Assembly (NCBI RefSeq): GCF_001809535.1
Contig: NZ_KV797925.1
Span: 1 to 64,000, forward strand
DNA length: 64,000 bases
Direction of reading: 5' to 3'
Origin: Aerococcus sp. HMSC062A02
GTDB lineage: Bacteria; Bacillota; Bacilli; Lactobacillales; Aerococcaceae
Shown in pieces: positions 20,113-50,982 of this stretch; the stretch's first letter is position 1; each line of letters begins with the position of its first letter. Made by a program: the position numbers and the translations under genes. The notes under the pieces are model-generated. The model made no database searches. It saw nothing but the letters and a program-made list of their open reading frames with translations, and was not told the DNA's origin.

Positions 20113-21498
20113 TTATTCGACTCCTTTACTTTGAAATTTTTCTAAGAGTCCTGGCAAAAGATAGCCTAAAGTGCAAAGGATCAAGCCGTAAACATTGGTC
20201 CCTAAAAGCAAGGCGCTATCTCCAGCCCCAATAGCAAAGATACTTGGGACAAGCCCAAAAGTATAAAGCAAACCAATTATGATACCTATCCAAAAGCTCA
20301 GTTGGAAGCTCCACTTATTTGTTGGCACAAAACCATGAAGGCAAAAAATAGGCGCAAAGCCCATAACCATGGTGCCACTGATGGTTGTTGCACTAAGGAT
20401 GCTTGTTCCAAAAAACATGGGTAAATTCCCCAAGATTGCAAAAAGCACCATAGTCAGCATCGCAATAAATCGTGTTTTTTTCTTAGTCAAGCGAATACCC
20501 AGCAAATGAGGCACGTCAATAGCAGATAATTTCGCAATACTTGAAAGCGCAGAATCAAGAGTCGACCCCGCTGAAGACACCATAATCCCTGCCATAATAA
20601 CAAGGGCGGCAGTTCCCAGTGACTGGGCAACAGCTACTGGAATATTATCCGTTAAAGCCATCCCCTCCATCTTGGCGTAGATGCCAACAAAAGAGAAAAG
20701 CACAATCGATACGAAACCCGCTAGGCCCGCTATGATAAAAGCCTTGAGCATCTTCTTCTCATCTGAGATAAAGCCCCGGTCAGTTAAAACTGGGTCATGG
20801 AAAGGATAGCTAAAAATTTGAACAGCAGATACTAAAAGCATGTCTACTCCCCCTAGCAAAGTCCAATTCCCTGACTGAACATAATCAGTCATCGGACGAT
20901 TAGGCAGCACCAATGCAAAAACAGCCACCATAAAAATAATAAAAATGATACTTTGAATCATATCAGTTACAATCGCACTCCGCAAACCACCACGGACAGA
21001 ATAAGCTAGGGTAATTACGGAAAATATCACAGAGGCAAGTATAAAGGGAGTAGATCCCGACGCCCCAAAATAACCACCTACTACTGAGGTATTCGACCAA
21101 ATTTCATTGAATAAACGTGTAAAAATTGCCAAAGTAAAGAAAATTCCCGCCCAAGGGCCATAATTATGATTGAGAAAAGGAATAATCCCTTTTGCTCCAA
21201 ATTTTTTACGTAAACGGTAGATAACAAAACCAGCTAAGGGAATACATAGCCAATAAGTTGCGTAGGCAAAGCCTCCCACAATCCCATACTGAGCCCCTAA
21301 ATTAGCTGCATTAGTTACTGATTTAGCAAAAATCCAACTAATAAAAATGGTTGCTGTTAGTAAGGGGAGCGAAGAATCCTTACCTTCCTTATTCGTTCCT
21401 CTAAAATACCCACTGAAATCAACAAACTTTGGCGATAATAAAAACATCAAAATAGCATAAATCGTAAGAAAGGCCCATATCACTTCATTACTCGTCAT
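20113..21498 (-). CDS. Sodium:solute symporter (SSS family)
   Basis: A 461-residue membrane protein with about 12-13 hydrophobic segments and the core of the sodium:solute symporter family. Helpful stretches are the early ISWIFAKSVTNAANLGAQYG helix, YSVRGGLRSAIVTDMIQ, and the SSAGSTLDSALSSIAKLSA segment, which carries the Ser/Thr sodium ligands of this fold. Substrates in the family include sugars, proline, pantothenate, nucleosides and carboxylates; none can be chosen here. The gene has AAAAGGAG before its ATG, is separated from the selenium operon by a terminator, and is tightly coupled to the phosphoesterase-like gene. Confidence 0.8.
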   Translation of the reverse strand: MTSNEVIWAFLTIYAILMFLLSPKFVDFSGYFRGTNKEGKDSSLPLLTATIFISWIFAKSVTNAANLGAQYGIVGGFAYATYWLCIPLAGFVIYRLRKKFGAKGIIPFLNHNYGPWAGIFFTLAIFTRLFNEIWSNTSVVGGYFGASGSTPFILASVIFSVITLAYSVRGGLRSAIVTDMIQSIIFIIFMVAVFALVLPNRPMTDYVQSGNWTLLGGVDMLLVSAVQIFSYPFHDPVLTDRGFISDEKKMLKAFIIAGLAGFVSIVLFSFVGIYAKMEGMALTDNIPVAVAQSLGTAALVIMAGIMVSSAGSTLDSALSSIAKLSAIDVPHLLGIRLTKKKTRFIAMLTMVLFAILGNLPMFFGTSILSATTISGTMVMGFAPIFCLHGFVPTNKWSFQLSFWIGIIIGLLYTFGLVPSIFAIGAGDSALLLGTNVYGLILCTLGYLLPGLLEKFQSKGVE

Positions 21499-21563: not shown

Positions 21564-22445
21564 TTATACTTCCAAGGGCTTATCTGTCTGCGTGGCCCAT
21601 TCCATCAAGGAGCCGTCATACATGGCAACCTGGTCTTGACCAAGATAATTCAGAACAGCTCGGAGCCAGCAAGCCGCAATCCCAAAACCGCAATAGGTAA
21701 TGACGCGCTTATCAGGATCGAGCACAGCAAAGTCTGCAAAGACCTGCCGCAAATCTTTTTCAGGCAAGAGCGCGCCTGTCTCAGGATCAGATAAGGACCC
21801 GAAGAAGACATTAACTGCGGATGGAATGTGTCCCACTCGGTCGTCACCGAAGCCAGCAAATTCCCCCTCGTATTGGGCCTTAGGAAGACTATCTAAGATC
21901 ACAACGCTCGGATCTTCGACGGCTGCTTCCACTTCCGTCAGATCAGCAAGCAGGTCTTCTCGACGTTGCAAGCTTAGCTGGCCCTGCTTGCTTTCAGGTA
22001 TTTCTTCTGTTAGGGCCCGACCTTCACGCTCCCACTTATTCAAGCCCCCCTCAAGGATAGCAATTTGTTTTTCGGGAAAGCCCTCATAAGCCAGCTGCCA
22101 GGCCAAGCGTGCCGCCCACATATTCGCTGTAAAATCCGCGCCGACTTGGGCTCCACTGTCATAGATAACAACCTGGCTATCTTCAGCAATCCCCAAGTCT
22201 TCCATATTTTTCACGAAAGGCTCATGGGCAGTGACTTGGAAGGGAATCGGGTCATGACTTGCTGCTTCAGCCAGTTGGTCATAGAAGACAGCCCCTGGTA
22301 AATGTTTGGCCGCATACTGGTCCTTACCAGAGCGCAAGAACTCTCCTTCTGGATCATTAAAGAAAACGGTAGCATCCACCAAAACTAAGTTTGGATCGGC
22401 TAGCTGACTCGCTAATTCTTCAGTTGATACAATATTTTTCATCAA
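21564..22445 (-). CDS. 3-mercaptopyruvate/thiosulfate sulfurtransferase (tandem rhodanese)
   Basis: A 293-residue cytoplasmic protein with two rhodanese domains (about 5-135 and 155-290), like SseA/TST. The first keeps the fold only (VVIYDSGAQVGADF lacks the Cys); the second has the active Cys in ITYCGFGIAACW. Enzymes of this type move sulfane sulfur, and in some systems selenium, through a Cys persulfide or perselenide. The N-terminal EEL...DPNLVLVDATVFF start is normal. It is the last gene of the selenium-linked operon, 7 nt after the radical SAM gene, and is the third rhodanese protein in it. Confidence 0.85.
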   Translation of the reverse strand: MMKNIVSTEELASQLADPNLVLVDATVFFNDPEGEFLRSGKDQYAAKHLPGAVFYDQLAEAASHDPIPFQVTAHEPFVKNMEDLGIAEDSQVVIYDSGAQVGADFTANMWAARLAWQLAYEGFPEKQIAILEGGLNKWEREGRALTEEIPESKQGQLSLQRREDLLADLTEVEAAVEDPSVVILDSLPKAQYEGEFAGFGDDRVGHIPSAVNVFFGSLSDPETGALLPEKDLRQVFADFAVLDPDKRVITYCGFGIAACWLRAVLNYLGQDQVAMYDGSLMEWATQTDKPLEV

Positions 22446-22452
22446 AAACCTC

Positions 22453-23415
22453 CTACGCTTCAGCCAAGGCGACTTGGGCTGGACATTCTGTCGTCAATTC
22501 GCCTCCACAAGATGAACCAAAACCAGCTGTACAGCCATAACAATAATCGCGGAAGAGGATCTCCCGTCCAAGATCTTCTTTATCAATCACATCGGTAATT
22601 GTATCTCCCGTACTAATCGGCAGGTTAGACATTTGATGGAAGTCACAATCATAGAGTTGGCCGTCGTAACCCACTGACAGCTGGGACCGGCACATCAGAT
22701 TAGGTACCGTCACGGGATTAAAGGCATTGCGAAGGATATCCATATACTCGTCATAATAGTCCATATCATTTAGGAAATCTTCAAAGTAGCCCATAGGCAG
22801 GTTGGTAATGGTATATAGATTCGTAAATTCAATGCCATACTGACCTAAGTGGTTGCGATAGTCTACCGCCAAGGCGTTTTGCTCTGGGGGTAAAGTGGCC
22901 CCTAGCGGATTATGGACGAGGTTTAAAGGTCGGTCTTTATCAATGCCATAGCCATAAGAATTCAGTTCTTGGAGGACCTTGATTAACTTCTTAAAGACCC
23001 CGCTACCGCGTACGACATCCACATTGTCTTCAGTGTAACAAGGCATCGAAATAAAAATCGTCACAGGATATTTTTGATAGAACTCACGCATTCTTTTATT
23101 CAAAAAAGTCCCATTCGTTCGGACAATCACTTCGTCCACATAGGGAGCCCCTTTCTCTGCCAGATAGGTGAAGCCTGGGTGCATAGTAGGTTCTCCCCCT
23201 GTAATATCCAGGGTCGTCACTTCATCATGGGCCTTGAGAAATTCAATGCAGGCATCCATAATCTCGGGCGACATCATTTCATTCTTCGAGTCGCGCATCA
23301 CGTGACAGTGCCGGCAACGCAGGTTACATACCTTACCAATATTCACTTGCAGAGTAGTAATTGCTGAGGTTTTCCGGTATTCAGGTTCGATCCGGTCAAT
23401 AAAATCACTTGACAT
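22453..23415 (-). CDS. Radical SAM protein, ArsS-like (rSAM/selenodomain type)
   Basis: A 320-residue radical SAM enzyme. The [4Fe-4S] site is CNLRCRHC (CxxxCxxC, residues about 31-38), followed by the SAM-binding GGEPTMHP. The C-terminal domain carries DYCYGCTAGFGSSCGGE, the Cys-rich signature of the radical SAM/SeCys family (TIGR04167, which includes arsenosugar protein ArsS). Some relatives have selenocysteine in that motif; all positions are Cys here. ArsS joins the 5'-deoxyadenosyl group of SAM to dimethylarsenic. With selenoprotein, rhodanese and glycosyltransferase genes in the same operon, a chalcogen acceptor is equally plausible. No arsenite methyltransferase gene is in the window. 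Confidence 0.8.
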   Translation of the reverse strand: MSSDFIDRIEPEYRKTSAITTLQVNIGKVCNLRCRHCHVMRDSKNEMMSPEIMDACIEFLKAHDEVTTLDITGGEPTMHPGFTYLAEKGAPYVDEVIVRTNGTFLNKRMREFYQKYPVTIFISMPCYTEDNVDVVRGSGVFKKLIKVLQELNSYGYGIDKDRPLNLVHNPLGATLPPEQNALAVDYRNHLGQYGIEFTNLYTITNLPMGYFEDFLNDMDYYDEYMDILRNAFNPVTVPNLMCRSQLSVGYDGQLYDCDFHQMSNLPISTGDTITDVIDKEDLGREILFRDYCYGCTAGFGSSCGGELTTECPAQVALAEA

Positions 23416-23427
23416 TATTTTCTCCTT

Positions 23428-24330
23428 TCATTTTTGCTGATCATCGAGGGACAACCAAGTCTGGTAGAGATGATCTTTTAGTGCCTCTTTTTTAGTAATT
23501 CTAGGTGTCGTGACCAGCGTCTGCTGGTAAGGCTTAGTCACCACATACTGGGTCGGGTCCTGGCTCGGGCAGTGAAGGCGTCCTCGAGCTAGGCCTTCTA
23601 CACTCAGCCAATATCTCTCTTGGTCTAAAGAAAAGTATTCTGGATGAACGAGGCAGGCCGCTGCCAGGCTATCCCAGTTATAGAAGCCTTTGATGCCATA
23701 CTCTAAGTCATTATCGCGAAACCAAGGCGCTGAATATTTTTGAATCATTTGGACAATAGGGCCTTCCACTCGGTCGAAAGCTGCTTCATATTGCTCCTGG
23801 GTAAAGAGCAGGTCCAAGCAATGATTGCCTGTCATGACACGGACATTATGCCCCTTGGTTAAGACTTGATAGGCAGCTTGAGGATCACAGGAGAAATTCA
23901 ATTCCAACATTTCCTGCTTGGCGAAGTTCAGGGGCGCCGTAGTGCCTCCCATCAAGCTAAAACCAGCAACTTGATCAAAGAAATCTGGATTAAGAAGAGA
24001 AGCTCCCATAAGATTCGTCAGAGATCCTGTCGCCAAGACATACAAGTCTCCTGCATATTGGGCAGCCAAATCAGCCAGAAGACGACTAGCTGGATTGAGA
24101 TAATCGCCACAAGCCTGACCGCCCTTAGCATAGGGCAGATCAAGCTGAAGCGTCTCTAGGAGATGCTGGGTATCCCGGTCCACCAGGTCGATCCCCTTAT
24201 TCCCGAACGTCGATGTCACAGCGATCAGCTCCACTTCAGGACAGCCTAATAAATAAAGCAGCGCCATCCCATCATCCACATCACGATTAGCCGTAAAAAA
24301 AGTATTGTCAAAATCAATGGCTACTTTCAT
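23428..24330 (-). CDS. Atypical nucleoside hydrolase-like protein
   Basis: A 300-residue protein of the inosine-uridine nucleoside hydrolase fold. The usual N-terminal DxDxGxDD calcium motif is split: DFDNT at residues 6-10 and DVDDG at about 17-21, with a short insertion, so ligand geometry may differ. The core TGSLTNL strand, SLMGGT and the FNWDSLAA-like YNWDSLAAAC element near the C-terminus are present. If active, it would release a base from a nucleoside. In the radical SAM operon this would fit removal of adenine from a 5'-deoxyadenosyl product. It is distinct from the standard nucleoside hydrolase at 43.5 kb. It overlaps the upstream membrane-protein gene by 17 nt. Confidence 0.65.
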   Translation of the reverse strand: MKVAIDFDNTFFTANRDVDDGMALLYLLGCPEVELIAVTSTFGNKGIDLVDRDTQHLLETLQLDLPYAKGGQACGDYLNPASRLLADLAAQYAGDLYVLATGSLTNLMGASLLNPDFFDQVAGFSLMGGTTAPLNFAKQEMLELNFSCDPQAAYQVLTKGHNVRVMTGNHCLDLLFTQEQYEAAFDRVEGPIVQMIQKYSAPWFRDNDLEYGIKGFYNWDSLAAACLVHPEYFSLDQERYWLSVEGLARGRLHCPSQDPTQYVVTKPYQQTLVTTPRITKKEALKDHLYQTWLSLDDQQK

Positions 24331-24748
24331 CGGTTAAACCCTTTCTAGACCTAGCCTTTATCCCAGCAATGATCATTTGGAAGAGGCTTAGAGCAAGTAG
24401 AAGCAAATAGTAGAGATAGTAGGTTTCCAATTGGTCGAAAGTCCAGAATAAACTATAGAACGTAAAGGCTAAAGTCAAGACTAGCCCTCCATAGGCTGAT
24501 CGCCGTTTGTAACGAAGCAGAAGTATAACGGCCACTATAAGACACAAGCTAGGCAGTATCCAGGTCCAAAAATCATGATAAAGTTCAGCTTTCCTTGAAC
24601 GATAGAGTACTGACCGCATAAAATTCAAATGATTCGCGTAAAAACCACTAACTTGCGTCATTAAAAAGAGCGCGAGAACTTGTAAGCCACGCAAACTTGC
24701 GATCACTAGCTGGACAGGCCTTGACTTAATCAAGGATTTCCACATCAT
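24314..24748 (-). CDS. Small membrane protein of unknown function
   Basis: A 144-residue protein with four probable membrane segments (residues about 15-35, 62-80, 87-107 and 108-128) and positively charged ends. I do not recognise the family. It overlaps the rhodanese lipoprotein gene upstream by 23 nt and the nucleoside hydrolase-like gene downstream by 17 nt, so it is translated within the selenium-linked operon. The overlap makes an independent function unlikely; it may anchor or assist one of the neighbouring envelope proteins. The long overlap at its 5' end leaves the exact start uncertain. Confidence 0.6.
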   Translation of the reverse strand: MMWKSLIKSRPVQLVIASLRGLQVLALFLMTQVSGFYANHLNFMRSVLYRSRKAELYHDFWTWILPSLCLIVAVILLLRYKRRSAYGGLVLTLAFTFYSLFWTFDQLETYYLYYLLLLALSLFQMIIAGIKARSRKGLTDESSH

Positions 24749-25772
24749 TTCCGCGGGGATCTCCTACTTGTACCGGGTACTTGCTTGGATTTTTTTGATG
24801 GTTTAAATTCCATTCATACCAACCCCCATCTTGGACCGAAATATCATGCCAGCCTGCTTGTTTAGCAACAAAGAAGGCTGTAGTATTACGCCAGCCTGTT
24901 CCACAATAGAATGTTACCGGTTTATCTTGACTAATTCCCCATTCTTCCCAATCAGCAAATACTGCTTGTGGCTCACGAATTGTGCCATCTTCATTGGTTA
25001 GATAGTTGACGTCAGCTGCTGTTTCGCTGGCTTTGGCCCAGACTGCTCCTTTGATCTCGCCTGCCTTGTCAATGTAGTCATAACCTGATGTTTCACCAAT
25101 AAACTCAGGCCAAGAGCGAACGGAAGCAATCACCAAGTTTGGTTGGGACTCCTTAGCTGCTAGGAGGTCATCCGACGTCTTAATATAGGCTTCGGGCCGA
25201 CCTGGATAATCCCCGCCAAAATCTTTAGCTGCGGTAACTTGAGGACTTTCCTCAGTAAGTTCATAACCTGCCTTCTCCCAGGCTGCTTTACCACCGTCAA
25301 TAATGTGCACTTCATCTACACCCAGGTAGTAAGCGGCAAAGGCCACACGGGAAGCCGCATTGACATCCTCACCATAAACAAAAAGTGGTGTATCCTTGCT
25401 TACCCCCTTAGCGAGAAAGGCTTTGACCAAGTCATCATCTGTTAAGAGATTCCAATCACTCTCTTCTGTCTCAATCTCCATCGTATCCATGAGTTGAGCA
25501 CCTGGCAGGTGGCCTTTTTTGTAGGCTGCATCACCATAACCTGCCTCTAGAATCTTGGCTGTATCCTGCTGGTCAATCTGGTCTTTAGCCCAAGCGGCAT
25601 CCACAAAAATATCCTCTTTCTTGCTTTCGCCTGCTTTGACCAGATGGGTCTCCTCTTTTGAAGGAGGGGCTGGTTGCGTTGAGTCGCTAGCTGTTGAACT
25701 TTGCCCTTGGCAAGCCCCTAAAAGAAAACTAGCTAGTCCACATACTGCTAAAATTTTTTTAGTCCAATGCAT
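24726..25772 (-). CDS. Rhodanese lipoprotein, YnjE-like
   Basis: A 348-residue extracytoplasmic sulfurtransferase. The signal peptide ends in LGAC (Cys20), then a Ser/Thr-rich linker. Two rhodanese domains follow: the first (about 55-175) has no active Cys (VYGEDVNAA), the second (about 195-340) has YCGTGWRNT. The CGTGWR active loop resembles that of E. coli YnjE, which is encoded near TVP38-type genes and selD. The protein would transfer sulfur or selenium on the outer face of the membrane. It is followed by the small membrane protein gene in the same operon. Confidence 0.8.
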   Translation of the reverse strand: MHWTKKILAVCGLASFLLGACQGQSSTASDSTQPAPPSKEETHLVKAGESKKEDIFVDAAWAKDQIDQQDTAKILEAGYGDAAYKKGHLPGAQLMDTMEIETEESDWNLLTDDDLVKAFLAKGVSKDTPLFVYGEDVNAASRVAFAAYYLGVDEVHIIDGGKAAWEKAGYELTEESPQVTAAKDFGGDYPGRPEAYIKTSDDLLAAKESQPNLVIASVRSWPEFIGETSGYDYIDKAGEIKGAVWAKASETAADVNYLTNEDGTIREPQAVFADWEEWGISQDKPVTFYCGTGWRNTTAFFVAKQAGWHDISVQDGGWYEWNLNHQKNPSKYPVQVGDPRGNDVEILD

Positions 25773-25800
25773 CTAATCTTCCTCTCTTCTTCTCAATTAC

Positions 25801-26478
25801 TTATTTATCGCGGTAAAATTTTTGAATACTTTCAATCGACTTTCCCTGCCTGAATAGGGCTTGGGCTCTTTGCATCTTAAATAGGGTTCTCAGATAGCCC
25901 TTAGCTTCAAAGCGTCTCGCTGAGGTATAGATCTTCTGCTCTGCCACCCGGCAATAAACACCAGCCTCCTTGGCCCGAATCGAAAGATCATAGTCTTCCA
26001 TTAACGGGTAGGAACGAAAGCCTCCCAAAGCCTGGTAAAAATCGCGGCGCATATGCATGCCCTGGTCTCCAAAGGCAATATGGCGGTGACTTAGCCGCCA
26101 ATTGGATCCTGCTGCAATCAGACGCATCCGCCAATCCTCACTGGTAAAGCGCAAGGGAAAGGCAGCAAAGGGGACTTCCTGACCATTCTTTTGTACCTCC
26201 TTAAGAGGGCAAGTTTTAAAGAAAGAATCTGCATGCAGAAAGAATAAGATTTCACCCTGACTGGCAAGCACGCCTGTATGAAGCTGTTGCCCCCGCCCCG
26301 GCTGGGAGTTAACGACTGAGTAGCCTGCCGCCCTGATTAAATGGGCTGTACCGTCCCGGCTGCTCCCATCCACGAAGATCAGCTCATGCGGAATATCTGG
26401 GTTAAACACCTCTAAATGATCAAACAATTGATCCAGTTGGTTTCGCTCATTAAAAACAGGAATGATAATACTAATCAT
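25801..26478 (-). CDS. Family 2 glycosyltransferase, rSAM/selenodomain-associated type
   Basis: A 225-residue GT-A glycosyltransferase without membrane segments. The N-terminal SIIIPVFNERNQL, the VDGSSRDGT nucleotide-binding strand, PGRGQQLHTG and the FFLHADS metal-binding DxD-like motif match TIGR04283 ('transferase 2, rSAM/selenodomain-associated'). It would transfer a sugar in the cytoplasm; donor and acceptor are unknown. The gene starts 3 nt after the TVP38-like gene. A second, different associated glycosyltransferase is encoded at the head of the operon, so the pair is the same as in known rSAM/selenodomain neighbourhoods. Confidence 0.8.
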   Translation of the reverse strand: MISIIIPVFNERNQLDQLFDHLEVFNPDIPHELIFVDGSSRDGTAHLIRAAGYSVVNSQPGRGQQLHTGVLASQGEILFFLHADSFFKTCPLKEVQKNGQEVPFAAFPLRFTSEDWRMRLIAAGSNWRLSHRHIAFGDQGMHMRRDFYQALGGFRSYPLMEDYDLSIRAKEAGVYCRVAEQKIYTSARRFEAKGYLRTLFKMQRAQALFRQGKSIESIQKFYRDK

Positions 26479-26481
26479 CAG

Positions 26482-27195
26482 CTAGTTAAGGGATTCCTTT
26501 TTCTTCTTGCGGTCGGTATAGACCCGGCGCAGGAGGGCAACTAAGACGCTCAAAGCGAATAGGATCAACAGACCCGTCACAAGCTTCTGAGCGCCACCTG
26601 TCAACATACCACCTACATAAGAATAAATAATGGTCGCCGGTAATTGACCGATCCCTGTGGCAATAAAATAACCCCAAAAGCCCATCGATGTTAAGCCTGC
26701 TGCATAAGATACAATATCAAAGGACATAAAGGGCAGCAAGCGGGCCACTAGGATGGTCTGCATGCCATAGCGGTCAAAAAAGTTTTCGATGCTTTCTAAG
26801 CCCCGCTTAGTCGTAAAGCGAACAACCACATCACGCCCTAAGATGCGGGCAATGTAAAAGCATAGGGCAGCCCCCACCATCGCACTCGACCATGACAAGA
26901 TAGCTCCCTGCCACCAACCAAAGAGATTAGCATTGGTCACCGTAATCAAGAAAGCAGGGAGCGGGGCGATCACTGCCGTTAAAACCATTAGGAAAAATGA
27001 AATAAGTGCCGCATAGCCCCCGTATGAATCGATAAATTCGCGCACTTCATCAAAATTCCCCGTTGCAAACATCTTAAAGACCTGGTTGATCCATTCCCTA
27101 ACTGGGGGGATCAGAAAATAAATAGCCAGGCAAAGGCCCACAATACCTAGCAATAACCAGCGTCGCTTACTGGCTTCGTTAGTTTTCTTCGTCAT
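26482..27195 (-). CDS. TVP38/TMEM64 (DedA-like) membrane protein
   Basis: A 237-residue integral membrane protein with about six hydrophobic segments. The SNARE-associated/VTT domain is seen in LTAVIAPLPAFLITVTNANLFG, split around the re-entrant helix, and in GRDVVVRFTTKRGLE and ARLLPFMSFDIVSYAAGL. DedA-like proteins move lipids or anions, and E. coli relatives YdjX/YdjZ share a cluster with the rhodanese YnjE. Here too the gene is next to rhodanese lipoprotein genes. GGAGGAGAC precedes the ATG. A hairpin with T run separates it from the upstream rhodanese gene. Confidence 0.8.
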   Translation of the reverse strand: MTKKTNEASKRRWLLLGIVGLCLAIYFLIPPVREWINQVFKMFATGNFDEVREFIDSYGGYAALISFFLMVLTAVIAPLPAFLITVTNANLFGWWQGAILSWSSAMVGAALCFYIARILGRDVVVRFTTKRGLESIENFFDRYGMQTILVARLLPFMSFDIVSYAAGLTSMGFWGYFIATGIGQLPATIIYSYVGGMLTGGAQKLVTGLLILFALSVLVALLRRVYTDRKKKKESLN

Positions 27196-27214
27196 CTGTC
27201 TCCTCCATCTTCCA

Positions 27215-27252
27215 ATAAAAAGAGCGACCCAATCTAAGAAACTGGGCCGCCT
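27215..27252 (-). terminator. Internal terminator-like hairpin in the selenium operon
   Basis: Minus strand: AGGCGGCCCA, loop, TGGGTCGCT, then CTTTTTATT. It would allow partial read-through from the selenoprotein half to the radical SAM half. Confidence 0.6.
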
Positions 27253-27286
27253 AAAATTAACTACCCAACTAGATCAGAGACTTAAA

Positions 27287-28048
27287 TTATTTCTCTGACA
27301 AATCAAAGCCGTCCCATTCCTTAGTACCTTCTGTGGCATTGATGGTGTTGTAACCTTCATCTGTTAGGGCTTGAGCGATGGTATTTGATTTATTACCGGA
27401 GTAGCAGTAAGTCAAGATAGTTTTATCTTTAGGAATATCAGCTTTCTTCGCATCCAAGTCGTCAACTTCGATATTTACTGCCCCTTTAACGTGGCCCTTA
27501 TCGTAGTCCTTAGCCTTACGTGCATCGATGATGTAGTATTCGCCATCATTGTTGTCAACCATTTCTTGGAATTTGTCTCCTAGCACATAGCCAACTTGAG
27601 TCATTGTTGAATAGTCATGGTCTTTAACCCCGTCAGCATTGTAAACTTCTTCAAAGCCGTTTTTAGCCAAGATGTCTGCCCCTTCCTGGCTCTTGTTCCC
27701 AGTGTTGCAGATCGTTACTACATTTTCTTTCTTATAGTTGCTTAAACGATCGAGGTTATTTTCAAGTTCATCGACAGGGATATTGATAGCCCATTTCACA
27801 TGGCCTTCTTTGTATTCATCTTCTGGACGAACGTCGATGACGAGGTAGTCTTCTTTCTTCTTGTCATCAGCTAAAGCTTCGTCGAGCTCTTCGCCGGATA
27901 TAGTTTTAACTTCAGCCGCTTGGTCAGCTGTAGCTTCTGTTTGAGCATCATTTGAACCGCTAGAAGCAGAGTCTGTGTTATCTGCACAAGCAGCTAGTGA
28001 CAATGAAGTAAGAGCAGTTAAACTGAGTAATAATAATTTTTTTGACAT
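27287..28048 (-). CDS. Tandem rhodanese lipoprotein with two active cysteines
   Basis: A 253-residue lipoprotein with lipobox LAAC (Cys21) and a short Ser/Asp-rich linker. Two complete rhodanese domains follow: about 50-145 with VTICNTGNKS and about 155-250 with LTYCYSGNKS. Both keep the active Cys, unlike most tandem rhodaneses. The protein is outside the membrane and could pass sulfane sulfur or selenium between domains. The selenoprotein gene lies 21 nt upstream with the same orientation, which is the closest link between a rhodanese and the predicted UxxC protein. AAAGGAG precedes the ATG. Confidence 0.82.
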   Translation of the reverse strand: MSKKLLLLSLTALTSLSLAACADNTDSASSGSNDAQTEATADQAAEVKTISGEELDEALADDKKKEDYLVIDVRPEDEYKEGHVKWAINIPVDELENNLDRLSNYKKENVVTICNTGNKSQEGADILAKNGFEEVYNADGVKDHDYSTMTQVGYVLGDKFQEMVDNNDGEYYIIDARKAKDYDKGHVKGAVNIEVDDLDAKKADIPKDKTILTYCYSGNKSNTIAQALTDEGYNTINATEGTKEWDGFDLSEK

Positions 28049-28069
28049 AATTTTTTCTCCTTTAAATTT

Positions 28070-28855
28070 TTAAATTTCCCATTTCTTCAATTCTTCGGCA
28101 CCGCCATGAATGGCAAAATCGAGCAGAGCGGTGAGGCCCTGGCGTTCGGTTTCTAAGTCAAAAGCTTGCCCCGCAAAAGTATGGCCCAGGGCAAAGGGGG
28201 TCTCAAGCATGCGAGGTGGGCGGGCTTTTTCCGCCACATTAGGCAGGTGCATCATGGAAGCCGTGCGTATGCCCCGGCTTTCAATTTCGCGCTGAATCAG
28301 CCCCACGGACTGGTGGCAAATATATCAGCCAGGAGACAGCAAGGCAATATCGACCTGGTCCTCCTGCAATTGGTCAGCGATAGCAGGTGCCGTCTTATTC
28401 ATGAGCTTCTTAACCTGGGGGATGTAGCCCATCAAACCGAAGTGGTGAGGAGCTACTTCTCCAATCTTACCCTCCCTAGCGAATTGCCGGAGGATATCCA
28501 GGGGGAAGACCAAGTTAATATCTTCGAGGGCATCTCGAATATCATAGTGTTCGTGGTTTACCGTAAGGTCCTCATAGTCCACATCTCCGGGAATAATACG
28601 GAAAGTTGGATCTCCCTTCTTCGTCTCAAAAGGCGGATCCGTCTTCAAGCGGACCCCCGCCGTGGTAATGAAAGCAACTCGGGCTTCATCTAGTGCCTTA
28701 TCCATATGCGCAATTTTGGGTGCCGAATTGATGGTCACGACCATGTGCTGGGCGACACGACTAATAACAACTTCTTTTAAACTTCGGCGATTTTTTTTAA
28801 CGATAAAAATCCTCCTTTCTTTATCCAGGCAATCTTTTAGCGATATAGTCTTCAA
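28070..28855 (-). CDS. Selenoprotein of the GrdB/PrdB-like family, UGA read as Sec (paralogue 2)
   Basis: One reading frame interrupted by a single UGA at 28325-28327. Read through, it gives about 261 residues with the motif LLSPG-U-YICHQSVG, i.e. UxxC at residues 177-180 counted from the TTG at 28855. Cys-containing relatives of the 'selenoprotein B' family have CPVCHQ at this place, which supports Sec. The N-terminal part shows FITTAGVRLKTDPPFE, FRIIPGDVDYEDL and FPLDILRQFA; the part after UGA shows the family's REIESRGI and PPRMLETPFALGHTF. A SECIS-like hairpin follows the UGA. The start is unclear: AAAGGAGG at 28812-28819 has no ATG, GTG or TTG at a proper distance. Partner thiols and substrate are unknown; selenium-dependent redox or reductase chemistry is inferred. 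Confidence 0.75.
28298..28312 (-). promoter_or_regulatory. SECIS-like hairpin after the UGA
   Basis: Minus strand: CAGTCC, GTG loop, GGGCTG. The loop begins 19 nt after the UGA, exactly as in the paralogue at 50.6 kb. Small apical loop and position fit bacterial SECIS elements recognised by SelB. Confidence 0.65.
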
Positions 28856-30329
28856 TCATCTGGATAAAGTCAGTACTTAAAAAGCGTGAAATGACCTGGT
28901 AAGTTTCCTGGTTACGCGCCAATTTATCAGCTTTATTATATTGCACATAGGCCATGGCGCACCAAGTCAAGCCCCGCAGGCAAGTGAAGACCAAGTACTG
29001 GTCGAGCTTAGCCTGGTCAATCGCAATCGGAGAGTGGGCATCATAGGCCTGGATGAAGCTTTCTAAAGACTGGTCATCATAGAGGTAGTCAGTCTTCCAA
29101 AGCGTCGTTGTCGGCGCTAAGAAATGTCCCAAATCCTGTTCACGTTCCCCAATCAGCGGCTTCTCCCAGTCAATGACATAGGACTGGTCGCCTGGGTTGA
29201 TCAGGAAATTAGAGGCATTGAGTTCCGTATTAATGATACAAGGATTAACAAGCTGGGCGCTGTGGTCATAGACCTTTAAGCCATCTAAGAGCCGCTGAAT
29301 CCGCTGAGTCACTTCCTCCGACCGCCCCTCCCAGGACCGGTAGTGGGCAAACATGGTCTCAAACTCTTCATACATCACCACAAAGGGTTGGCCCACATAA
29401 ATGAGATGGTCTGCCTGCTTAGGATCTTGTTGGTGAATTTGCGCCAATAATTCCGCTGCAATCTGGCTATCCGTCTCATAGTCCAGCTGGCGACCAGGCA
29501 GGAAGGCTTCCACTAAATAACCCGCCCCAATCAAGGGGTGGTAGTCACAAAGCGCCAAGGGTTTGGGCGTTACGCCACTCGCTTCGAGCGCCTTCAAAGC
29601 CCCGTACTCATACTGGATCTGCTGGTCGAGATGCAATTGTGAGCCCAAAGCAATCCGCAACAATTTCCTGCCTTGGTCAAAGATAAAATTGGCATTATAT
29701 TCCCCTTGGGCTAGGAAAGTCGCCTCAGGGTCCCCCGTCAAGATAGCCGCAATATCTTCTTTATCATCAATATCACGGATGGCTGGCAGGAGTTCATAAC
29801 TGATCCCGGCTTGGTCAGCATGTGAAAGCGTCGCCGCCAAAACAGAGGTATGGCCATAACTTTCCAGGGCAAATAGGTCGGGATAATAGGCGGACATGCC
29901 GATCAGCCCATAGCCCCCATCCAAGCTAGGCGCCAAAACCAAGTCGCAGGAATCCAAATAAGTGAAGGCTTGGTCGACCTGGCTAGTAGATAAATCATAA
30001 AGATCTGACCCCATAAGAGCCACCTGGTCATAACCCCGGTTGAAACCATCTCGAATCGCCCGAGACATACGTTCACCTAGGCTATCGCCCTCCTGCCAAA
30101 ACACCGCTTCCTGGTCAAGGTTTAAAAAGTCACCCAAGTCATAGCCGGCTTGGTCAGCCGTTAGCCAGAAACAGAGGTCTGCTTGGCTCGCCTTAGCCCG
30201 CTGATAATTCATCTCTAAGAGATACTGGCTAAGCGCTTGGGTTTGATCGACCGTCAAGAAATCAGACAGACGACTCTTCGTCTCGCCTTTCAGTGGCAAG
30301 CGAGTCATTATAATTAATAGTTTTTTCAT
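28821..30329 (-). CDS. Fusion of rSAM/selenodomain-associated glycosyltransferase and phosphotransferase-like domain
   Basis: A protein of about 502 residues. Residues 1-200 match TIGR04282 ('transferase 1, rSAM/selenodomain-associated', CofC-like): LLIIMTRLPLKGETKSRL, GDSLGERMSRAI, LMGSDLYDL, DGGYGLIG. Residues about 205-500 resemble aminoglycoside/choline phosphotransferases; the Brenner HxD loop reads NTELNASN and the following DxD-type strand reads VIDWEKP, so the catalytic Asp position carries Glu. Activity of this domain is therefore uncertain. The start is the ATG of MKKLLIIM; the frame is open upstream across the structured leader and its terminator, which is not coding. It has no clear ribosome-binding site. 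It is the first gene of the selenium operon and overlaps the selenoprotein frame. Confidence 0.75.
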   Translation of the reverse strand: MKKLLIIMTRLPLKGETKSRLSDFLTVDQTQALSQYLLEMNYQRAKASQADLCFWLTADQAGYDLGDFLNLDQEAVFWQEGDSLGERMSRAIRDGFNRGYDQVALMGSDLYDLSTSQVDQAFTYLDSCDLVLAPSLDGGYGLIGMSAYYPDLFALESYGHTSVLAATLSHADQAGISYELLPAIRDIDDKEDIAAILTGDPEATFLAQGEYNANFIFDQGRKLLRIALGSQLHLDQQIQYEYGALKALEASGVTPKPLALCDYHPLIGAGYLVEAFLPGRQLDYETDSQIAAELLAQIHQQDPKQADHLIYVGQPFVVMYEEFETMFAHYRSWEGRSEEVTQRIQRLLDGLKVYDHSAQLVNPCIINTELNASNFLINPGDQSYVIDWEKPLIGEREQDLGHFLAPTTTLWKTDYLYDDQSLESFIQAYDAHSPIAIDQAKLDQYLVFTCLRGLTWCAMAYVQYNKADKLARNQETYQVISRFLSTDFIQMIEDYIAKRLPG

Positions 30330-30360
30330 AGCTTTTGTATGTAAAGGTTTCCATATAAAC

Positions 30361-30555
30361 AAAAAAGGTGCTGACAGCAAATGCCAACACCCCTTTGAAT
30401 TATGGATACCCGCCGGTAATTTGTTGAATGATGCGGCGACGAAACCTCTTCGCATACTAAATAAGCCACTAACTTTCTTATTTACTATGCCCCACAAGCA
30501 AGCTCATAATATCCCCATTAGAAAAGTGTATAGCATTTACCAGCTGTCTTCCTAG
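30361..30555 (-). promoter_or_regulatory. Structured leader with attenuator of the selenium operon
   Basis: Between the promoter and the first gene the transcript can form a 14-bp hairpin (GCATAGTAAATAAG / CTTATTTAGTATGC, 30452-30490), a CGCCG/CGGCG pairing, and a terminator (GGTGTTGGCA / TGTCAGCACC plus six T, 30361-30391). The terminator stands about 30 nt before the ATG, so expression needs read-through. I could not match it to a riboswitch class I know. Confidence 0.55.
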
Positions 30556-30561
30556 CATCTT

Positions 30562-30590
30562 TTTATAGACTCACTGTACATACATGATAA
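30562..30590 (-). promoter_or_regulatory. Promoter of the selenium operon
   Basis: Minus strand: TTATCA (30585-30590), 17-nt spacer, TATAAA (30562-30567). Transcription would start near 30555. Confidence 0.5.
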
Positions 30591-30689
30591 ATGCCCCCCT
30601 CTCTAATGTATTCACTCAAACGTTACCATAATCACAAGAAAAAGGCAACTATTGTTGCCCTTTATAGAAATTTTTTTATTACTTTAAAG

Positions 30690-30930
30690 ATAAGAAAAGC
30701 CCTCAATCGGATCGGTAATGGGGGGGATCCAATATGAGGGCCTGGCGCAGTCGCCAACTCTTTCAGTAAAGAACAACCTAACAAGTAGGAAGCGCAAGGA
30801 AATCGACTATCAAAGTTGGAGAAAAACTTTTATCTTCCTAAAACGGTCTTTTAATTTGTGATGGTAGTAATCAAGTACCTGTTAGCAAGGTTCTTTACTG
30901 AATGGAACTGGCGACCTCGGTCGGTTCAGT
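30690..30930 (-). ncRNA. Long interrupted hairpin RNA, class unknown
   Basis: Two arms pair over some 40 nt with small internal loops: 30751-30790 (TCGCCA, TTCAGTAAAGAAC, CTAACA, GTA) and 30873-30914. A terminator-like hairpin (GCCCTCA / TGAGGGC then TTTTCTT) lies at 30699-30741 on the minus strand, giving the orientation. The rod shape and length recall 6S RNA, but no sequence signature confirms that; a MITE-like inverted repeat is the alternative. There is no ORF in it. Confidence 0.45.
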
Positions 30931-43525: not shown

Positions 43526-44485
43526 TTAAGCTTCTTGGGCTAGCATGGCGCTAATCCGGGTCATGAATTCTTCGAGGAAGCGGTCCGTATCCACCTGAAT
43601 AGCAACTGACATGCTAGGGTCTGGATCATTCAAGCGCTCGTTATCGCCAATAGTCCGGCCCCGGCTGGCACCTTCTGTTTCCACCTTCATATTGAGGGGC
43701 AGGTAGTCCACCAGATCTTCTTGGACGGCTACTGCAACGGCCAGGGGATCGTGGAGGGCACAGCCCTTCAGATGGGGTGAGGTGATTTCATAAGCTTTGA
43801 TATAGTAGTCAACAATATCAGCCAAAACCCGGCCGGCCTCCGTCCCCAGGGCCCGCCACTTCGCGGTATCCTCATAGGTCAGAAGGGTGCGGAGAGTCAC
43901 ATCCAGGCCAACCATGGTCACATGGACATCACTTCTGAACAAGCGGTCAGCTGCCGCTGGATCTTGGTTGATGTTAGCTTCCGTATAAGGGGTCACATTG
44001 CCGCAGACCGTTAAGGCCCCACCCATGATGACAATCTTACCGGCCTTCTTGAGGGTCGCTTCATCTTGGGCCAAGGCCGCATCGAGGTTAGTCATGGGAC
44101 CCGTAGCCACAATGATTAAGTCCTCGCCATAGAGGTCGCAAGCCGACAGGATAAAGTCAACGGCGGATTCTTGGCTAGGCTGGCGGGCAGAATCTGCCAA
44201 GTCGACATTGCCAATCCCATCCTCACCATGGATGAGAGCTGAAACCTCTAAGACTTCAAAGTCAGACTTGTCGCTAGCATGGGCTAGGCCAGGAAAAACA
44301 GGCACCTGGTCCTGGCCAAAAAGATCCAAGAGCTTCAAGGCATTGCGAAGGCCATCCGCCATCAAGACATTCCCATAAGTTCCTGTAATGCCGATCAATT
44401 CAACTTCCTTTGAGGCAACAGCGTAGGCAATGGCCAGGGCATCATCGATCCCTGTATCCAAATCGAGAATAATTTTTTTCGTCAT
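43526..44485 (-). CDS. Inosine-uridine preferring nucleoside hydrolase
   Basis: A protein of about 319 residues with the standard calcium motif IILDLDTGIDDALAI at the N-terminus, the ATGPMTNLDAAL strand, IVIMGGAL and the HDPLAVAVAV motif with the catalytic His. It cleaves ribonucleosides to base and ribose for salvage. The start is the ATG of MTKKIIL because AAGGAG is 8 nt upstream; a longer frame reaches 44518. This is a normal member, useful for contrast with the atypical relative in the selenium operon. Confidence 0.9.
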   Translation of the reverse strand: MTKKIILDLDTGIDDALAIAYAVASKEVELIGITGTYGNVLMADGLRNALKLLDLFGQDQVPVFPGLAHASDKSDFEVLEVSALIHGEDGIGNVDLADSARQPSQESAVDFILSACDLYGEDLIIVATGPMTNLDAALAQDEATLKKAGKIVIMGGALTVCGNVTPYTEANINQDPAAADRLFRSDVHVTMVGLDVTLRTLLTYEDTAKWRALGTEAGRVLADIVDYYIKAYEITSPHLKGCALHDPLAVAVAVQEDLVDYLPLNMKVETEGASRGRTIGDNERLNDPDPSMSVAIQVDTDRFLEEFMTRISAMLAQEA

Positions 44486-44549
44486 GGTTCTTACTCCTTG
44501 TTCACATGGTTCCGGCACGAGGGCCTTACTGGACGGTCAAATTTCTAAA

Positions 44550-50139: not shown

Positions 50140-50982
50140 ATGAAACATGTTGATTCAACGATGCCCACCAATCATGATCGTCAAACGATTGAAGCGCAAA
50201 CCGCAAAGTCTCATAATCTGGAGGCAATGACCCTCACTTGGAGACAAGCACCACAAATCGCACCGGTGATTGATAAACCCTTATCCGATCTCCGTGTCGC
50301 CATTGCCGCTTCTACCGGTGTCCACCTTAGAACGGATAAACCTTTTATTCTTACAGGAGATGCCTCTTACCGTATTATCCCAGGAGACGCTGATTACCGA
50401 GATCTGACCATCAGTCACGTCCGTTATCCGAATCAGGCTGCCCACCGCGATCTTGATGTTGTCTATCCTTTGAAAACTCTTCGCTATATGGCTGAAAAAA
50501 ATATCATCGGCGAAGTTTCACCAGTCAATATTTCCTGGATGGGACACGTCCCACGCGTTGATGTGCTGATTGAAGTAACAGCTAAACAAATTGCTGAAAC
50601 TTTAGAAGAAAACCAAGTGGACTTGGTGCTCCTCTCGCCTGGCTGATTTATGTGTCACCAGTCCGTGGGATTGGTCGCTCGAGAAATCGAAAGCCGTGGG
50701 ATAAGAACTGTTCTTGTCGGACATTTCCCTCATATTGCTGAAAGGATCCGTCCACCGCGCATGTATATTGTCGATGCCCCACTTGGAGAAACTTTCTCAA
50801 GTGCCTATGACTACCACATGCATGAAGTGATTGTCCACGAAGCTCTCGAATTTGCTCGCACTGGTGGGAGTGAATTAATTTACTACCCACCTTATGTCTG
50901 GAAAGATTATACCGGTCTGGTTCTTCCTGAAGGTGTTGAAGATCCACAACCGATTATTATCAAGAACCCTAGAGCACTATAA
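50140..50982 (+). CDS. Selenoprotein of the GrdB/PrdB-like family, UGA read as Sec (paralogue 1)
   Basis: A single frame of 280 residues if UGA at 50644-50646 is read as selenocysteine: LLSPG-U-FMCHQSVG, i.e. UxxC at residues 169-172. Before the UGA the protein has the family's GVHLRTDKPFIL, YRIIPGDADYRDL, VYPLKTLRYMA and GEVSPVNISWMGH; after it, REIESRGIRTV, ERIRPPRM and APLGETF. This matches Cys versions with CPVCHQ and, more distantly, the catalytic region of glycine reductase GrdB (UxxC). AAGGAGG is 7 nt before the ATG, and a consensus promoter and a terminator make it a single-gene unit. It is divergent from the pdh operon. A function in thiol or selenol redox chemistry is likely; the substrate is unknown. 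Confidence 0.8.
50657..50675 (+). promoter_or_regulatory. SECIS-like hairpin after the UGA
   Basis: ACCAGTCC, GTG loop, GGATTGGT: 8 bp with one G-U pair. The loop begins 19 nt after the UGA. The paralogue at 28.3 kb has the same loop, with a lower stem kept by a U-A to U-G and a G-U to G-C change. Confidence 0.7.

Follow-up and report, generated by a model that had tools for sequence, protein, structure and literature searches.

The radical S-adenosylmethionine (SAM) enzyme ArsS of arsenosugar synthesis has already been characterised (Cheng et al. 2021, cited in PMC12159101). For the steps that follow ArsS in this synthesis, no account was found in the literature searched. The locus described here is a minus-strand operon of Aerococcus sp. 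HMSC062A02, located in a stretch of 64,000 nucleotides (contig NZ_KV797925.1, positions 1 to 64,000; hereafter the window). It shares ArsS, a TVP38 protein and often TIGR04282 and TIGR04283 proteins with the arsM-arsS clusters of cyanobacteria and proteobacteria, in which the arsenite methyltransferase ArsM is encoded in the cluster or elsewhere in the genome. Unlike these clusters, the Aerococcus operon is unlinked to ArsM and has no mtnP, while it adds a PrdB-like selenoprotein, a nucleoside hydrolase, a fused kinase and three rhodaneses. We suggest, with moderate confidence, that a sugar bearing arsenic rather than selenium is made or processed by this operon, along a variant of the arsenosugar route.

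Other described systems resemble parts of the operon. CofC and 3-phosphoglycerate guanylyltransferase have the same fold as the TIGR04282 domain (Z 18-21), which in Aerococcus is instead joined to an APH-type kinase domain. The Escherichia coli operon ydjX-ydjY-ydjZ-ynjA-ynjB-ynjC-ynjD-ynjE (L127:4402-11775), for which no established function was found in the literature searched, is located 6 kb from selD. Most of its membrane, transport and rhodanese parts are common to the core of the Aerococcus operon, and YdjX, YdjY and YnjBCD are present at the loci of relatives, but it possesses no ArsS, TIGR04282 or TIGR04283 protein, selenoprotein or hydrolase.

The operon and its arsenic context

According to the listing of open reading frames, the minus-strand genes from 30329 down to 21564 form a single run, in which several overlap and none is more than about 90 nt from the next. 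Ten co-directional genes are present in this run, encoding in order the TIGR04282-APH fusion, the selenoprotein, Rhod1, the VTT protein, TIGR04283, Rhod2, a MauE-like protein, the hydrolase, ArsS and an MST-type rhodanese. The set recurs near ArsS in other Bacillota as well as in eight further family genomes, far beyond chance, and the operon is real. The original prediction had placed ArsS, both glycosyltransferase families, the hydrolase, three rhodaneses, a TVP38-like protein and a selenoprotein in one operon; these genes are indeed present, co-directional and tightly spaced, and the MauE-like gene (24314-24748) and the kinase fusion are additions to that list. The upstream limit proposed for the operon, 30590, has to be moved, as coding begins near 30329.

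Among 76 genomes of the family, the fusion, the selenoprotein, Rhod1, VTT and TIGR04283 always occur together, in nine genomes, and are referred to as the core. A YnjE/MST-type rhodanese is found at eight of the nine core loci and the hydrolase in eight of the nine stretches, and YnjBCD is present at six loci; the five core genomes that belong to genus g17 also have CcdA, TlpA and YdjY.

ArsS (22453..23415), which carries the TIGR04167 and DUF3641 domains, reaches 361.7 bits to TIGR04167 (curated cut-off 300). Its CxxxCxxC cluster motif (C30, C34 and C37) is conserved, as is a C-terminal set of cysteines or selenocysteines (C242, C257, C292, C295 and C303), and the orthologue of Atopobacter sp. 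AH10 (G032) has selenocysteine (Sec) at the position of a cysteine in Aerococcus ArsS. Past the radical SAM core, no match to ArsS was found in the PDB.

The operon was said to be accompanied by no arsenite methyltransferase, which is true of the operon and not of the genome. The 'missing METHYLTRANSFERASE' is present as a full-length ArsM of 354 aa on a contig other than the operon's (G000:C5:86760-87821, where G000 is the own genome), which matches the solved arsenite methyltransferase 5evj at 5e-100, retains the cysteines of the motifs and ends in a CCC tail. Within a set of 60 genomes, the own included, Atopobacter is the only other carrier of this ArsM type and also the only other genome with ArsS over the cut-off. 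In the 76 family genomes, the full-length type is found in three (G000, G032 and G461), all of which have the operon core; G030, G462, G464 and G015 carry a short ArsM-like gene that contains an in-frame TGA. In the short ArsM of G030 (L087:8515-9141, minus strand), Sec stands at a catalytic cysteine position (MYGTUVAGA). Counting all types, ArsM is carried by 6/9 core genomes and by 1/67 of the rest (Fisher 2.6e-6, or 1.9e-5 when the own genome is left out), a strength that is overstated, because the test ignores kinship and because the Sec-type ArsM needs the Sec decoding that is common to core genomes. Elsewhere in Bacillota, genome G403 encodes a 676-aa ArsM-ArsS fusion (L046:5008-7038, minus strand). 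The neighbours of this fusion are other radical SAM-like genes and ABC transporter genes.

ArsS clusters of other phyla contain similar components. Rhodaneses, VTT proteins, and AhpD-like and FAD proteins recur around ArsS, and in the cyanobacterium Pseudanabaena the order is TVP38, arsM, TVP38, arsS. The cluster of Acinetobacter portensis encodes ArsS, a TVP38/FAD fusion, DUF547, TIGR04283, TIGR04282, a methyltransferase, a phosphate transporter and mtnP, and its methyltransferase is an ArsM with 48% identity to that of Aerococcus. In Cupriavidus sp. KK10, one co-directional run of 7 kb holds an ArsM-like protein, ArsS, an FAD enzyme, TVP38, TIGR04283-like and TIGR04282-like proteins and MtnP. 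On plasmids, ArsS occurs in 51/72,556 records, 46 of them from Burkholderia, and on the ArsS plasmids of B. glumae mtnP lies 6-7 kb from ArsS. The presence of mtnP near ArsS in 3/6 ArsS-bearing plasmid genera is notable because plasmids seldom carry mtnP (69 records). This linkage, for which a per-record p-value was set aside as near-identical B. glumae plasmids dominate it, came to light only after the activation reading set out below had been proposed. No mtnP was found in the stretches examined around ArsS of Hymenobacter and Thiodictyon.

The first gene of the operon (28824..30329, with its likely start at the ATG at 30329, while the longest open reading frame extends to 30497) encodes a putative kinase-nucleotidyltransferase fusion, with an N-terminal TIGR04282/DUF2064 domain and a C-terminal APH/choline-kinase-like domain. 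TIGR04282 and TIGR04283 (a family-2 glycosyltransferase; 25801..26478, also matched by Pfam profiles) both exceed their curated cut-offs, with 160.4 bits (cut-off 134) and 226.3 bits (cut-off 182), respectively. In the AlphaFold model of the fusion (mean pLDDT, the predicted local distance difference test score, 89), the N-terminal domain matches DUF2064 (3cgx, Z 26.4), 3-phosphoglycerate guanylyltransferase (7p97, Z 21.1), MM2497 (Z 19.8) and Rv2983 (Z 18.3), and the C-terminal domain matches kinases of small molecules, among them choline kinases and N-acetylhexosamine 1-kinase, with Z 18-21. Both the Pfam score and the fold assign the latter to the APH type. The claim of two glycosyltransferases stands as far as family membership goes, but the TIGR04282 'glycosyltransferase' domain, to which an APH-family kinase is joined here, is modelled with a CofC-type nucleotidyltransferase fold; a fold is in itself no proof of function. 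A kinase paired with a nucleotidyltransferase recalls sugar-salvage pairs such as AmgK-MurU.

The hydrolase (23428..24330) is an atypical nucleoside hydrolase with 120 bits to PF01156 (IU_nuc_hydro). Unlike the canonical hydrolase of the same window (43529-44518), it lacks a compact DxDxxxDD metal motif, the first Asp motif being broken up by a 7-residue insertion.

Family memberships, folds, the operon, the ArsM-ArsS fusion, the plasmid-borne linkage of ArsS and MtnP, and the conservation of the selenoprotein TGA are computed; for all substrates in Aerococcus and each step after ArsS, we infer the following route. Arsenite would be methylated by the ArsM encoded elsewhere in the genome, and ArsS would put a 5'-deoxyadenosyl group on the resulting dimethylarsenic. 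The nucleoside hydrolase may then take off adenine, leaving free 5-arseno-ribose, a role that methylthioadenosine phosphorylase (MtnP) would fill in other bacteria. C1 of this sugar would be phosphorylated by the APH-type domain, and the fused TIGR04282 domain, acting as a nucleotidyltransferase rather than a glycosyltransferase, would form a nucleoside diphosphate (NDP)-activated arsenosugar. TIGR04283 might subsequently move the activated sugar onto an acceptor, with the VTT protein moving the carrier or the product across the membrane, and reducing or thiol/selenol chemistry for the arsenic probably comes from the selenoprotein and the rhodaneses. Since MtnP yields ribose-1-phosphate directly, TIGR04282 would receive one and the same substrate from the hydrolase and kinase in Aerococcus and from MtnP in other bacteria. 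The sequence of ArsS, adenine loss and sugar transfer in the original prediction is supported in its logic.

Points against the arsenosugar route and alternative readings

Several observations weigh against this route. With regard to its enzymes, Glu replaces the catalytic Asp of the APH HxDxxxxN loop in 9/9 fusions (NTELNxxN), the hydrolase gene is missing from the Atopobacter operon, and the Aerococcus hydrolase has Trp-Asp instead of the usual His-Asp, with all Asp residues retained. In purine-preferring hydrolases of the IAG type, Trp likewise precedes the metal-binding Asp, and by this analogy the Trp-Asp would suit adenine release; IAG hydrolases are among the profile matches of the operon hydrolase, although weaker than other hydrolase types. 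With regard to gene linkage, no mtnP is present in the window or near ArsS in Bacillota loci within the stretches fetched, in both genomes checked (the own and Atopobacter) ArsM lies away from the operon, and 3/9 core genomes are without any ArsM. Across 398 Bacillota genomes, ArsM of any type showed no association with ArsS (4/12 vs 69/386, p 0.16), which gives no support to a general partnership of the two in this phylum.

A further point against it is that ArsS is present at only 3/9 core loci, so that the co-conservation in relatives, whose lack the original prediction had named as refuting it, is seen for the core in nine genomes and for ArsS in only three of them. Its location in the locus differs among all three ArsS-bearing cores, and the three core-linked ArsS proteins are not one clade, the copies of the window and G462 being sisters. 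Because only three of nine core genomes carry ArsS, the core is separable from it, and genomes in which ArsS is absent (6/9) must either obtain the 5'-modified nucleoside from another source or use some other compound. Import of the YnjBCD type is one example of such a source, as this ABC importer adjoins 5/6 ArsS-less cores and is missing from the locus of the window and from that of Atopobacter. The core (fusion, TIGR04283, selenoprotein, VTT, rhodaneses, hydrolase and YnjBCD) might accordingly be a separate pathway for uptake and activation of a 5'-modified nucleoside or sugar, to which ArsS is an optional supplier. Homology to the E. coli ydjXYZ-ynjABCDE operon, which is without ArsS or the transferases, is consistent with it; VTT proteins of the core have 52-60% identity to YdjZ, YdjY proteins 48-53% to their E. 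coli counterpart, and Rhod2 about 42% to YnjE. Nevertheless, we regard this alternative as somewhat unlikely, for ArsS and YnjBCD are both present at the G462 locus, ArsM is enriched in core genomes, and TIGR04282, TIGR04283 and VTT also accompany ArsS in other phyla. Versions of the core that bear ArsS can thus serve to make arsenosugars, which cannot be the only function of the core as a whole.

The position of the core next to selenium genes is the last of the points against an arsenosugar. In two genomes of one genus (G007 and G011; L118 and L119), the core lies directly downstream of selD-yedF-DUF3343-selB-selA, and in G463 it lies upstream of selD/selB. This adjacency could point to selenium, while the need of the selenoprotein for Sec explains it too. 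It would fit the original prediction of a selenosugar or thiosugar pathway, in which rhodaneses and the selenoprotein supply selenium or sulfur that is joined to a sugar, as would the selenoprotein at 9/9 core loci, the three rhodaneses and the six cores lacking ArsS. The preference for a chalcogen fails, however, because it rested on the absence of ArsM, yet a full-length ArsM is encoded in the genome; ArsM is also fused to ArsS in G403 and clustered with it in other phyla. Moreover, an enzyme that contains Sec need not make a product that contains selenium, and the operon has only the selenium theme in common with the SenABC selenosugar/selenoneine pathway, as no GT-B (SenB-like) or SenA-like protein is among the operon's Pfam matches, a genome-wide search not having been made. 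Given the strong ArsM and ArsS context, we consider such a pathway improbable.

Least probable is arsenic or metalloid detoxification without sugar products, by methylation, thiolation and export with the 'transferases' acting on unrelated envelope glycans, which would suit the recurrence of rhodaneses, VTT, AhpD-like and FAD proteins near ArsS but leaves ArsS together with MtnP, or with a hydrolase and activation enzymes, in one operon unexplained.

The selenoprotein and selenocysteine decoding

In the operon, selenium is predicted to sit in an enzyme, a PrdB-like selenoprotein with a UxxC motif (28071..28801) that is read through an in-frame TGA (28325..28327), the last codon of open reading frame 28325-28855. 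The frame across this TGA reads '...LLSPGUYICHQSVGLIQREIE...', with UYIC as the Sec-x-x-Cys site. The selenoprotein call was confirmed, as the TGA is retained in 9/9 close orthologues and the genome encodes SelA, SelB and SelD, the SelD gene itself carrying a TGA. The protein matches PrdB/GRDB profiles, with 153.7 bits to TIGR04483, the profile of the D-proline reductase selenoprotein PrdB (under the cut-off of 300), and its close orthologues separate from the remaining PrdB-like matches. No PrdA gene adjoins it. A search of the PDB found no relatives by sequence, and comparison of folds gave nothing convincing (best Z 8.6). A scan of contigs with narrow peptide patterns of the selenoprotein matched Atopobacter sp. 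AH10 alone, from which absence elsewhere does not follow.

A weak 5-bp stem resembling a selenocysteine insertion sequence is kept 3' of the TGA in 10/10 aligned sequences, with covariation no higher than in shuffles. At the start of the gene (28796-28820), a strong AGGAGG is followed by ATC GTT AAA, with no ATG or GTG directly after it, which suggests either a non-standard start codon or a sequence error. As well, paired Grd-type reductase genes, named from their sequences, flank selD-selB-selA in the own genome (L021). A second PrdB/GRDB-like selenoprotein gene with an in-frame TGA is present on the plus strand at 50140-50979 (210 bits to the profile of the operon selenoprotein), near pyruvate-dehydrogenase-type genes and a SLAC1-like channel gene.

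Remaining genes, upstream region and significance

The remaining operon genes, all on the minus strand, encode membrane and rhodanese proteins. Rhod1 (27287..28048) is a predicted secreted double-rhodanese protein with a lipobox, Rhod2 (24726..25772) a lipoprotein double rhodanese with 42% identity to E. coli YnjE, and the last gene (21564..22445) encodes an MST-type double rhodanese; lipoprotein-type signals were read from the sequence on two of the three rhodaneses. The VTT protein (26482..27195) belongs to the TVP38/DedA type and has 56% identity to YdjZ. Like the APH domain and the hydrolase, VTT and the three rhodaneses have Pfam matches over threshold, while the small membrane protein at 24314..24748 has a weak MauE similarity (E 7e-4, under the Pfam cut-off). 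A sodium/solute symporter-like gene (20113..21498, minus strand; profile match under the cut-off) is possibly co-transcribed with the operon, and was not found at the other eight core loci.

Upstream of the operon, the leader (30330-30620, minus strand) has an unusually stable predicted folding (z -4.3) and ends in an intrinsic-terminator-like hairpin (30362..30396) 33 nt upstream of the first gene; attenuation control is possible. The Atopobacter leader has a similar terminator hairpin at the same place and no unusual fold (z -0.65). A riboswitch common to both was rejected on these z values and the lack of sequence similarity, and against Rfam the Aerococcus leader gave no match over threshold, only weak ones (E > 0.1). 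A perfect 13-nt inverted repeat (TTCAGTAAAGAAC) is also present in the upstream intergenic region, at 30762-30774 and 30890-30902, 115 nt apart.

Finally, we tentatively propose a wider role for these genes, in which a selenoprotein-dependent pathway turns 5-modified ribose into an NDP-sugar by means of a hydrolase, an anomeric kinase, a CofC-like nucleotidyltransferase and a family-2 glycosyltransferase, with ArsS as one of several suppliers and E. coli ydjXYZ-ynjABCDE as a reduced relative. No description of a selenoprotein-dependent NDP-activation pathway for 5-modified ribose was found in the literature searched. If it exists, such a pathway would fill in the steps that arsenosugar synthesis still lacks and offer a first clue to the E. 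coli operon. Should TIGR04282 be a nucleotidyltransferase that receives its substrate from MtnP, or from a hydrolase and kinase, arsenosugars would be made via NDP-activated arsenoribose. A PrdB-type selenoprotein would also be added to arsenic biology, and the E. coli ydj-ynj operon would be tied to the same gene family.

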